Shown here piece by piece: positions 23,650 to 55,096 of a stretch of 64,000 nt of DNA. The translations under genes were made by a program, and so were the position numbers. The notes beneath the pieces are model-generated. The model was not told the origin of the DNA and made no database searches. It worked only from the letters and a program-made list of their open reading frames with translations. Source of the stretch: Agrococcus sp. ProA11. GTDB taxonomy: Bacteria > Actinomycetota > Actinomycetes > Actinomycetales > Microbacteriaceae. The stretch is taken from positions 1,612,001 to 1,676,000 of the forward strand of contig NZ_CP156989.1 of the NCBI RefSeq assembly GCF_039880525.1. The letters are read 5' to 3'. Every line of letters starts with the position of its first letter. Within the stretch, counting starts at the first letter, position 1.

Positions 23650-24822
23650 TCAGCGCAGGAAGTCGGGGAGGAACTCGTCCTCCTCCTCGTCCACCTGGGT
23701 CAGCGGCTGCACGGGTCCCGTGAGGTGGTCGGCGACCGGCGGTGCGGGCACCGCGCGGCGCTCGGCCGGCTCTTCGACGCGGGGCGCCGACGGCGTGCTG
23801 GGCGCCGAGGCGCGCAGTCCCATCTCCTCGCGCGCGGCGGTGCGGATGACCGAGTCGTCGTCCTTCACGACCGGTCCGGTGCCGTCGAAGCCCGCAGCGA
23901 TGACCGTCACGCGCACCTCGTCGCCGAGCGTGTCGTCGATGACCGTGCCGAAGATGATGTTCGCCTCGGGGTGCACGGCCTCCTGCACGAGCTTCGCTGC
24001 GTCGTAGGTCTCATGGATGCCCAGGTTGCTGCCGGCCTGGATCGACAGCAGCACGCCGTGCGCACCGTCGATCTTGGCCTCCAGCAGCGGGCTGGCGACG
24101 GCGAGCTCCGCCGCCTTGATCGCGCGGTCCGCGCCGCGCGAGGAGCCGATGCCCATGAGGGCGCTGCCCGCGCCCTGCATGACCGACTTCACGTCAGCGA
24201 AGTCGACGTTGATGAGGCCCGGCGTGGTGATCAGGTCGGTGATGCCCTGGACGCCCGCGAGCAGCACCTGGTCGGCGGTCTCGAACGCCTCCACCATCGA
24301 GATGCCCATGTCGGAGATCTCGAGCAGTCGGTCGTTCGGCACCACGATGAGCGTGTCGACCTCGTTCTTGAGCGCTTCGACGCCGGTCTCGGCCTGCGCC
24401 TGCCGACGGCGGCCCTCGAACGAGAACGGCTTGGTCACCACACCGACGGTGAGCGCGCCGAGGCTCTTCGCGATGCGCGCCACGACCGGGGCGCCGCCCG
24501 TGCCGGTGCCGCCGCCCTCGCCCGCGGTGACGAAGACCATGTCGGCGCCCGAGAGCGCCTCCTCGATCTCCTCCGCGTGGTCCTCGGCTGCCCGCCTGCC
24601 CACCTCCGGGTCGGCACCAGCGCCGAGACCCTTCGTGAGCTCGCGGCCGACGTCGAGCTTGACGTCGGCGTCGCTGAGCAGCAGCGCCTGCGCGTCGGTG
24701 TTGATGGCGATGAACTCGACGCCTCGCAGGCCCAGATCGATCATGCGGTTGACGGCGTTCACACCGCCACCGCCTACGCCGACCACCTTGATGACGGCGA
24801 GGTAGTTGTTGTTGGAAGTCAC
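23650..24822 (-). CDS. ftsZ: Cell division protein FtsZ
   Basis: This tubulin-like GTPase forms the division ring. The 390-residue protein has the tubulin signature [10 protein letters not shown] at about residues 102-111 and the T7 loop NVDFADV near 205. The C-terminal partner-binding peptide ends [12 protein letters not shown] start at 24822 with GAGGGG eight bases upstream. The 179-base gap before it is AT-rich for this genome and holds a dyad shared with the resR-like gene. Strong conservation leaves no doubt. Confidence 0.98.
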
Positions 24823-24843
24823 GTGCCCGGCCCCTCGATCGAA

Positions 24844-24870
24844 CTCTCAACCTCTACTTGAAGTTTAGAG
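24844..24870 (-). promoter_or_regulatory. Dyad upstream of ftsZ, shared with resR-like gene
   Basis: CTCTCAACC (24844-24852) and AGTTTAGAG (24862-24870) form an imperfect dyad with 7 of 9 pairs, separated by nine bases. The centre CTTCAAGT and arm GGTTGAG are the same as in the dyad at 53681-53704. It lies 22-48 bases before the ftsZ start, where it would overlap the promoter or early transcript. In corynebacteria FtsR, a MerR-type protein, controls ftsZ, so this is a candidate site for FtsR or the ResR-like protein. Confidence 0.6.
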
Positions 24871-25001
24871 AATTCCTCATTTCATGCTGACAACTCCGAC
24901 GGTACGGGCGCGCATGGCACGAGCTCGGGACTGACGGGGCGTGTCGCGACCGGATCCGGCAAGAAAAAGAATCGTCAGGTTCGACGGCGTCGCGAGGACG
25001 C

Positions 25002-53093: not shown

Positions 53094-53657
53094 TCAGGCC
53101 GTGCGGCTCCTGCGAGCGCGGCGCGCGGCGAGCTCGTCGACTGGCTGCTGCTCGACGGGCGTGACCTCGAGCTCGATCAGCTGCGTCTCCACCTCGCGGA
53201 GCACCTTGCCGACAGCGATGCCGAACACGCCCTGGCCGCGGCCGAGCAGGTCGATCACCTCGTCGCTGGAGGTGCAGAGGTAGACGCTCGCGCCGTCGGA
53301 GATCAGGGTCGTCTGCGTCAGGTCGCGCACACCGGCGTCATGCAGCTGCTGGATGGCGACGCGGATCTGCTGCAGCGAGATGCCGGTGTCGAGCAGGCGC
53401 TTGACGAGCTTGAGCACCAGGATGTCGCGGAACGAGTAGAGGCGCTGGCTGCCGGAGCCGTGCGCGGGCCGGATCGTCGGCTCGACGAGCCCGGTGCGGG
53501 CCCAGTAGTCGAGCTGCCGGTAGGTGATGCCCGCGGCGTCCGCGGCGATGGCACCCTTGTAGCCAACGGCGTCACGCTCCTGCGGAAGGCCGTCGGTGAA
53601 CAGCAGACCGAGGTCCTGGCCGCTCTGGCCGCCCTGGTCTTCGATGCCGTCGCGCAT
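53094..53657 (-). CDS. MerR-family regulator, ResR/McdR (Rv1830)-like
   Basis: A 187-residue DNA-binding protein with a MerR winged helix at about residues 35-105 (ADAAGITYRQLDYWARTGLVEP, then SQRLYSFRDILVLKLVKRLL) and a short C-terminal effector part. Homologues Rv1830 (ResR/McdR) control cell growth and division in mycobacteria. It lies downstream of the FtsR-like gene on the same strand with a 161-base gap. That gap holds a dyad 24-47 bases before the start that matches one before ftsZ, suggesting autoregulation or control by FtsR. Confidence 0.85.
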   Translation of the reverse strand: MRDGIEDQGGQSGQDLGLLFTDGLPQERDAVGYKGAIAADAAGITYRQLDYWARTGLVEPTIRPAHGSGSQRLYSFRDILVLKLVKRLLDTGISLQQIRVAIQQLHDAGVRDLTQTTLISDGASVYLCTSSDEVIDLLGRGQGVFGIAVGKVLREVETQLIELEVTPVEQQPVDELAARRARRSRTA

Positions 53658-53680: not shown

Positions 53681-53704
53681 CTCAACCTTCAAGTCGTGGT
53701 TGAG
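53681..53704 (-). promoter_or_regulatory. Perfect dyad upstream of the ResR-like gene, matching the ftsZ site
   Basis: CTCAACC (53681-53687) and GGTTGAG (53698-53704) form a perfect 7-bp dyad with the centre TTCAAGTCGT. The ftsZ upstream site has the same arms and CTTCAAGT centre at nearly the same distance from its start. It is most likely the binding site of a MerR-type regulator. Confidence 0.65.
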
Positions 53705-53818
53705 TGTTGGCCCACCGTATCGACTCGATGCCCCGAGATCGTGCATCCGACGGTCGGCGCGGCGTGTCGGGCCGAGTCTACGCCCTGCCTCCGACGAGAG
53801 ACAGGGGCGCGCGGTGCG

Positions 53819-54502
53819 TCATGCCCCGAGCGCCTCGCGCGTGAGCAGGTCGCGCACCGACTGGATCTGGCTCGCGAGGTCGCGCGCCGCCTCCGCAGCC
53901 TTCGCCTGGCTGCCTGTCTCCCGGCGACCGCGCATGGGCTTGAGCGCCGACTCGATGAGCGCCGCCTCGCGCTGCGCCGACTGCCGCATGCCACGGAGGT
54001 GCCGGGGCTCGATGCCGAAGCGCTGCAGCTCCACGAGCGCCTTGAGCGACTGCACGGCGGCGTCGCCGAACGGCTCGGAGCCGGGGAGCAGCTGCGCGGA
54101 GATCGCGTCGGTGAGCAGCTGCTTGGTCGCCCCCGCCTCGGCCTGCAGCTCCGCACGCGAGAGCCTGCGGTCGACGGCCAGGATCGAGGGCGCCTCGACG
54201 CGCACGTTGGCGCCGGGCACCTGCGGGGTGCGACCAGCGTCGATGTCCTCGAGATGCCCGAGGATCACCTTCAGCGGCAGGTAGTGGTCGCGCTGCAGCG
54301 TGAGGATGTAGCGGAGCCGCTCGAGATCCGCGGCATCGAACTTGCGGTAGCCGCTGGCGGTGCGCTGCGGCGAGATGAGCCCCTGGTCCTCGAGGAATCG
54401 CAGCTTCGACGGCGACAGGTCCGGGAACTCGGGGCCGAGCTTCGCCAGCACCTGCCCGATCGAGAGCAGGCCCGCGGGCTTCCGCGCAGCCTGCGCGCTC
54501 AC
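53819..54502 (-). CDS. ftsR: MerR-family regulator FtsR (Rv1828)-like
   Basis: A 227-residue regulator with a MerR winged helix at about 12-80 (LSIGQVLAKLGPEFPDLSPSK, SGYRKFDAADLERLRYIL) and a helical C-terminus. FtsR in Corynebacterium activates ftsZ; the mycobacterial homologue is Rv1828. It follows the GarA-like gene with a four-base overlap (start at 54502, GarA stop at 54499), the same order as Rv1827-Rv1828. The nuclease Rv1829, which usually lies between the two MerR genes, is missing here. Confidence 0.9.
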   Translation of the reverse strand: MSAQAARKPAGLLSIGQVLAKLGPEFPDLSPSKLRFLEDQGLISPQRTASGYRKFDAADLERLRYILTLQRDHYLPLKVILGHLEDIDAGRTPQVPGANVRVEAPSILAVDRRLSRAELQAEAGATKQLLTDAISAQLLPGSEPFGDAAVQSLKALVELQRFGIEPRHLRGMRQSAQREAALIESALKPMRGRRETGSQAKAAEAARDLASQIQSVRDLLTREALGA

Positions 54503-54954
54503 GCTCGCTGCTCGAGGTCGAGGCGCGAGCGGTAGAAGGTCAGACGGAACTTGCCGACCTGCACCTCCGCGCCGTCCCGCAGCTCGACCGCGTCGACGCG
54601 CTCGCCGTCGTGATAGGTGCCGTTGAGCGAACCGAGGTCGCGCAGTGCGAAGTCCGTGCCGGTGCGCACGAACTCCGCGTGCCGGCGGGAGACGGTGACG
54701 TCGTCGAGGAAGATGTCGGCGTCCGGGTGGCGTCCGGCGACCGTCGAGTCCTGGTCGAGGAGGAAGCGGGCCCCGACGTTGGGGCCGCGGCGCACGACGA
54801 GGATCGCTGAGCCCGAGGGCAGCGACGCGACGGCGTCCCGATCCTCAGCGGTGGTGCCTTCGATCATGGCTGCCAGCTGCGCGCGGTAGTCGTCACCCCA
54901 CGACTGCGTGCTCTCGCCGTCCCTGCCCGGCTTCCGGGCGTCGTGCTCAGTCAT
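54499..54954 (-). CDS. garA: FHA-domain protein GarA/OdhI-like
   Basis: A small cytoplasmic FHA protein, 151 residues, that in mycobacteria and corynebacteria inhibits 2-oxoglutarate dehydrogenase and adjusts glutamate metabolism, switched off by kinase phosphorylation of an N-terminal threonine pair. Here the N-terminal EGTTAEDRD has the threonine pair. The FHA domain is at about residues 65-140 with AGRHPDADIFLDDVTVSRRH and LGSLNGTYHDG. GGAGG precedes ATG 54954; a longer start upstream lacks support. The PASTA kinase at 42 kb could be its kinase. Confidence 0.93.
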   Translation of the reverse strand: MTEHDARKPGRDGESTQSWGDDYRAQLAAMIEGTTAEDRDAVASLPSGSAILVVRRGPNVGARFLLDQDSTVAGRHPDADIFLDDVTVSRRHAEFVRTGTDFALRDLGSLNGTYHDGERVDAVELRDGAEVQVGKFRLTFYRSRLDLEQRA

Positions 54955-55096
54955 GCGTTTCCTCCACGCGGACGGTGCCGGCGAGTGCCGGCGGACGATC
55001 AGCATAGCGATCGAGCCTGTGCTCCAGCGATGCCGGAACGGCAGGCGCTCATCGCCTGAGAGGCCACCCTAGCGAACGCTGGAGCGGCGCGTCGCC

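Follow-up and report, generated by a model that had tools for sequence, protein, structure and literature searches.

Similar sites precede ftsZ and a MerR-type regulator gene

Two genes lying 29 kb apart in Agrococcus sp. ProA11, ftsZ and a gene for a MerR-type regulator, are each preceded by a similar dyad, which raises the question of which protein reads both sites and what it would control through them. The pair had been reported in an earlier note on this DNA, and both dyads are indeed present in the window, the whole 64-kb stretch of DNA that was analysed. The two genes and the sites before them are as follows.

23650..24822, minus strand: ftsZ, 390 aa, GTG start, with Tubulin and FtsZ_C domains
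24842..24866, minus strand: candidate FtsR box before ftsZ, AAACTTCAAGTAGAGGTTGAGAGTT on the minus strand
24848-24872: second 25-mer at ftsZ, overlapping the first
53094..53657, minus strand: resR/mcdR-like gene of a MerR-type regulator, 187 aa, MerR_1 domain, named from its place in the garA-ftsR-resR cluster, no named ResR model being reached in NCBIfam
53684..53708, strand given as '.': candidate FtsR box before resR, AACCTTCAAGTCGTGGTTGAGTGTT on the plus strand

The two sites had been described as having the same arms (CTCAACC and GGTTGAG) and the same centre. One arm and the centre are common to both, but the right arm at ftsZ is TTTAGAG rather than GGTTGAG: the resR side carries an exact dyad, CTCAACCTTCAAGTCGTGGTTGAG (53681-53704), and the ftsZ side reads CTCAACCTCTACTTGAAGTTTAGAG (24846-24870). 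When the 25-mers were aligned without gaps (24842-24866 on the minus strand, 53684-53708 on the plus strand), 21 of 25 bases were identical, in keeping with the roughly 20 of about 25 given before, and the start codons of ftsZ and resR lie 19 and 26 bases, respectively, past the ends of the 25-mers. A wide dyad appears at ftsZ because two 25-mers overlap there with an offset of 6 bases. At resR, the wide arm GGTTGAG/CTCAACC is changed in 8 of the 18 genus sites compared (L039, L040, and L042-L047), and the 25-mer is kept in these sites. The wide dyad CTCAACC-N10-GGTTGAG, which the earlier note had taken as the unit, was rejected on these grounds, and the 25-mer took its place as the conserved unit.

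Both 25-mers match the FtsR box, and FtsR is encoded beside resR

FtsR of Corynebacterium glutamicum (Cg1631) binds and activates ftsZ, and a similar motif stands before ftsZ in all promoters analysed in that work (Kraxner et al. 2019, PMC6683498). The box in question is a 25-bp inverted repeat like AACCCTAAAGTAAAGGTTGAGGGTA. We found such a repeat before ftsZ, where 19 of 25 bases are identical to the C. glutamicum ftsZ FtsR site, and again at resR, where 18 of 25 are identical and the repeat is conserved; the next-best 25-mers on either strand of the window share 15. The 64-kb window was also scanned with a position weight matrix (PWM) built from three published FtsR sites only (C. glutamicum ftsZ and cop1, and Mycobacterium tuberculosis ftsZ; PMC6683498), and the ftsZ site (30.9) and the resR site (21.2) ranked first and second among separate places, the next one scoring 4.2. 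The second, overlapping 25-mer at ftsZ scored 23.4. The ftsZ site belongs to a known class, FtsR boxes before ftsZ, and was to be expected, because C. glutamicum FtsR binds and activates ftsZ and similar motifs precede the ftsZ genes analysed there.

The genes upstream of resR were then identified.

53819..54502, minus strand: ftsR, 227 aa, full-length match to NCBIfam NF050798 (TF_FtsR_Actino), 241 bits against a cut-off of 150
54499..55005, minus strand: garA/odhI-like FHA gene overlapping ftsR, with an FHA domain; OdhI model 164.5 bits, under its cut-off of 200

As judged from the NF050798 match, gene 53819-54502 is a true FtsR gene, which bears out the earlier statement that an FtsR-type gene lies just upstream of the ResR-like one. 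Residues 112-219 of the protein match the Rv1828 structure 5ydc. The gene comes after garA/odhI, and the gap of 161 bases between ftsR and resR holds no nuclease gene. The DNA-binding region of FtsR is 59-83% identical in the 12 other lineages compared, the C-terminal part is 29-63% identical, and FtsR was found in 119 of 120 family genomes.

A regulator of the right family is encoded in the cluster itself, and it is very probable that both sites are bound by an FtsR dimer, so that FtsR would control ftsZ, as in Corynebacterium, and, in this lineage, resR/mcdR as well. It would in this way provide a common input to FtsZ supply and to a conserved ResR-WhiB division circuit. The suggestion that FtsR or ResR controls both genes is upheld in its FtsR half by the motif in register, its conservation, and the identity of FtsR; the ResR half is taken up below. 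The two genes had further been joined in one loop. No box was found before ftsR or garA, no other separate place in the window scoring above 4.2, and therefore the FtsR part is a fan-out to ftsZ and resR, not a loop. FtsR autoregulation in the window genome was rejected on the same score. In a genus genome in which garA-ftsR lies apart from resR (G022), a 19.1-bit FtsR-type box occurs upstream of garA (L405:1361-1385), where autoregulation is possible; in G005, no site above 9 bits was found upstream of garA-ftsR.

The box is kept at ftsZ in nearly all family genomes examined and at resR in a part of them

Conservation was examined in 70 family loci, made up of the 30 best FtsR matches (the own genome and two others of the genus included) and 40 chosen by hand, not by box. 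At ftsZ, a box of at least 12 bits is present in 69 of the 70 genomes: in all 58 with a parsed leader and in 11 of the other 12, in which the start pattern was not found and the locus was scanned whole, coding part included (L305 reached only 7.0). Permuted PWMs gave a mean of 2.07 and a maximum of 31 of 58 in 200 trials. At resR, for which 69 of the 70 loci were parsed (L258 is without ResR), a box of at least 12 bits was found in 41 genomes and the other 28 scored 4.8 bits or less; symmetric permuted PWMs gave a mean of 1.15 and a maximum of 16 of 69 in 200 trials.

Within the genus, the resR box is present at no less than 15.7 bits in all 21 genomes in which resR was parsed beside ftsR, and also in the remaining three, in which resR lies on another contig than ftsR (24/24). 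Two of the draft assemblies, G005 and G022, have no ResR within about 1.5 kb after ftsR, garA-ftsR being on another contig; resR remains about 30 kb from ftsZ in both, and the boxes are kept at resR (19.9 and 17.2 bits) as well as at ftsZ (22.8 and 25.4 bits). The G011 contig stops after ftsR and gives no information on relocation.

Among named records, many of them near relatives, 54 of the 64 parsed loci (out of 65; L155 is cut off) carry the resR box, including Leucobacter, Aquiluna, a Nocardioides metagenome-assembled genome, and a Corynebacterium record; in three AT-rich records, an equal score was reached by 1-2 of 100 shuffles. Another FtsR-type box, of 20.9-24.8 bits, lies 325 bases ahead of the resR leader in four Aquiluna-type records (L146, L149, L151, and L152). 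For a wider sample, we took from 148 phylum genomes the 20 best matches to FtsR, leaving aside the own genome. Four of these are genomes in the same order, where the resR box reaches 12 bits or more in two and 11.2 in another, and none was found in the five genomes of one other family (8-10 Mb, probably Streptomyces-like) or in the four of another (5-6 Mb, probably Mycobacterium-like). The other seven of the 20 include L362 (13.1), L364 (15.6), L361 (10.2), and L363, in which ResR was not parsed and a 24.7-bit site is present. The resR box is patchy beyond the family. A quick tree of 87 FtsR+ResR rows, with 11 changes of box presence (18 with position), was discarded, 14 rows having been picked with knowledge of the box and long-branch warnings having been raised.

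How much does the resR site matter? FtsR might bind both sites while its control of ftsZ alone counts, the resR site having little or no effect. The 28 of 69 family genomes without the box are consistent with this, as is C. glutamicum, where resR (cg1633) does not appear among the nine strong FtsR ChAP-Seq peaks (PMC6683498). Yet the box is kept in every genus genome, even with ftsR on another contig, and many resR boxes score in the range of ftsZ boxes. We regard a silent resR site as unlikely, and a working FtsR box there looks like a new FtsR target, kept in many related bacteria.

ResR appears to read a different motif, before whiB

The second half of the earlier suggestion was that ResR itself binds both sites. 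In mycobacteria, the ResR/McdR motif is AATnACAnnnnTGTnATT (PMC9040748). With up to 2 mismatches, it occurs at seven places in the Agrococcus genome, versus one for the reversed control; all seven lie outside the window, and the motif was not found at the two sites. One of the places precedes a WhiB gene recognised by Pfam in the own genome, which we infer to be whiB2. Its promoter (L311:1463-1518; G000:C1:640079) shows GACACGC and then the ResR-type motif AACTACACCGGTGTAATT. Of the 23 genus loci examined, own genome included, 16 have a WhiB-like gene preceded by a ResR-type motif, with GACACGC at most 80 bases upstream. One locus was taken per genome, which is why the other seven do not count as cases of absence, and WhiB-like was called by cysteine pattern, with Pfam applied in the own genome only. 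The two marks of a ResR/McdR regulator, a MerR-type protein in the cluster and the motif before a whiB gene, were both found. ResR seems to have kept its published specificity, because near-matches to AATnACAnnnnTGTnATT precede a WhiB-like gene in the genus, and the conserved motifs suggest a loop only between ResR and WhiB.

ResR as the binder, controlling its own gene and ftsZ, would suit a MerR-type protein with a site before its own gene. Against it, the published motif differs and sits before the WhiB-like gene, both sites fit the FtsR motif instead, and 28 of 69 family resR genes are without the box though ResR is present. We judge this reading improbable, and FtsR remains our candidate for both sites.

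The resR box may lie over the transcription start

Promoter elements around the two boxes were compared next. In mycobacteria, GACACGC is the WhiB2 element of the mcdR promoter (PMC9040748); in Streptomyces, the WhiA element is GACAC, which GACACGC includes, and ftsZ is a WhiA target (PMC3781837).

24939..24945, minus strand: GACACGC, WhiA/WhiB2-type element upstream of ftsZ
24899..24904, minus strand: putative -10 (TACCGT) of a distal ftsZ promoter, assigned by consensus and conservation only
53762..53768, minus strand: GACACGC, WhiA/WhiB2-type element upstream of resR
53714..53719, minus strand: putative -10 (TACGGT) of resR, 5 bases upstream of the FtsR box, assigned by consensus (TAnnnT) and conservation only

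The pattern of a WhiA/WhiB2 promoter, cGACACGc upstream of a -10, is represented by an element that is present and conserved and by -10 hexamers that are putative; sigma-70 scans of the resR and ftsZ regions returned no promoter and neither of the two hexamers. At ftsZ, 45 of 58 parsed family leaders have GACACGC at a distance of 73-94 bases upstream of the start of the box, the distance being 79 or 80 in 25 of these 45. At resR, it is present in 68 of 69 family genomes, and most boxed genomes have the box 53-86 bases downstream of it. In Leucobacter and a few others, the resR box lies just upstream of GACACGC (GACACGC at +24 to +33, counted from the start of the box). Between ftsQ and ftsZ, a terminator-like hairpin with a T-run is present on the minus strand of the window (24973-24986); shuffles give 0.2 on average.

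The start of the resR box 5 bases after the putative -10 suggests that FtsR would sit over the transcription start of resR and most likely lower or gate initiation, by gating or repression. For relatives with the box just upstream of GACACGC, activation is the likelier outcome.

The dyads might instead act in RNA, forming a hairpin in the leader or a terminator, before ftsZ in one case and between ftsR and resR in the other. This is very improbable: the resR dyad can form an 8-pair stem, but neither box has a terminator-like site, the folding z-scores are just -1.5 and -1.0, 8 of 18 genus sites have a changed outer stem arm, and some genomes, Leucobacter among them, have the box immediately upstream of GACACGC.

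The two sites stand out in the genome

The core CTTCAAGTNNNGGTTGAG has exactly two exact matches in the 2.67-Mb genome, at the ftsZ and resR sites; when 3 mismatches are allowed, it occurs no more often than the reversed control. We also built a sequence-only model from 52 boxes, picked from this analysis with a preference for high scorers and including both window sites, and 150 of 192 first-look candidates in the genome were scored with it. Among those scored, with its own sites in the model, the ftsZ site came first in the genome (21.2 bits, E 0.001) and the resR site second (16.5 bits, E 0.036), followed by places before a parA-like gene (15.7 bits) and before the gene of an apparent secreted protein (12.9 bits). 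Leaders accounted for 143 places of at least 12 bits in 27,550 positions, and the rest of the same loci for 19 in 552,189. The absence of the resR box from 28 of 69 family genomes would suit chance resemblance or neutral DNA held in common, but such an origin is hardly credible given two exact cores in 2.67 Mb, both before these genes, and a conservation that greatly exceeds that of shuffles, of flanking DNA, and, on average, of permuted PWMs. Lack of conservation and many chance copies, which the earlier note had named as evidence against its reading, were found neither in the genus nor for most family genomes.

A third FtsR-type box (17.7 bits) lies outside the window before the parA-like gene (G000:C1:1709619-1709638; L317:1497-1521). 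The gene matches the ParA model at 110 bits, below cut-off, and its neighbour resembles XerD by eye. A match over the same span, at 15.5-15.7 bits, was found in 13 of 24 genus genomes, the neighbour gene being checked in G000 and G014 only. As a family-wide target, the gene was rejected: 60 family genomes were searched and 30 examined, of which only 6, two from the genus included, reach at least 12 bits before it. It is kept as a genus-level lead. A weak FtsR-type box of 15.0 bits (L319:1498-1522; G000:C1:628353) stands directly before an apparent secreted-protein gene without an NCBIfam match.

DISCUSSION

From the observed sites, with their motif identity, conservation, and positions, we infer binding by FtsR in Agrococcus, occupancy by WhiA/WhiB2 and ResR, and the sign of control. 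WhiA/WhiB2 would act on ftsZ, resR, and whiB through GACACGC, and ResR would feed back on whiB; the arrows from FtsR to ftsZ and resR draw on published FtsR work together with the sites described here, and the other arrows on motif conservation. A larger scheme is possible, and we offer it tentatively: in Microbacteriaceae, FtsR, ResR, and WhiA/WhiB2 might form one division-control circuit, in which FtsR and WhiA/WhiB2 feed ftsZ and resR via paired elements and ResR feeds back on whiB2. During evolution, the FtsR box of resR would have moved between two places, one upstream of the WhiA element and one over the transcription start, turning FtsR from activator to repressor, and the parA-like chromosome-segregation gene would be a further target in the genus.

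Regulation of actinobacterial cell division is little known, and FtsR targets other than ftsZ must exist, as Kraxner et al. conclude (PMC6683498). In this lineage, resR is a candidate for such a target, although cg1633 gave no strong peak in C. glutamicum. A conserved direct link from FtsR to resR, if true, would join FtsR, studied for division in C. glutamicum, with ResR/McdR, studied for division and drug resilience in mycobacteria, which have been treated apart so far. Exact DNA sites are now defined for testing in actinobacteria. Microbacter-, Leifsonia, and Clavibacter receive no mention in the main text of PMC6683498, and our search, outside of which most subscription papers lay, found no literature joining FtsR (Rv1828) with resR/McdR (Rv1830). 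We class the ftsZ site with a known type of site and see in the resR link a known regulator wired in a new way.

The closest known system is that of Cg1631 and Rv1828 (PMC6683498). As in its ftsZ promoters, a 25-bp imperfect inverted repeat stands before ftsZ in the same register, and a regulator of the same family is encoded in a garA-ftsR-resR cluster. In contrast to the Cg1631 system, Agrococcus has a second strong site before resR, and its ftsZ box is near the start codon, whereas that of C. glutamicum, where FtsR activates, is at -73 from the transcript start; unlike in Cg1631 and Rv1828, resR follows ftsR by 161 bases without an intervening nuclease gene. The mycobacterial McdR/ResR-WhiB2 feedback loop (PMC9040748) is similar in its ResR-type motif before whiB and in GACACGC before resR, but the Agrococcus resR has an added FtsR box, absent from all four genomes of the probably Mycobacterium-like family, and GACACGC here also precedes ftsZ and whiB. 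Finally, the WhiA/WhiB promoters of Streptomyces (PMC3781837) have the GACAC element in common with those described here, ftsZ being a WhiA target there, whereas the element in our genomes is held at a near-fixed distance from the FtsR box of ftsZ.
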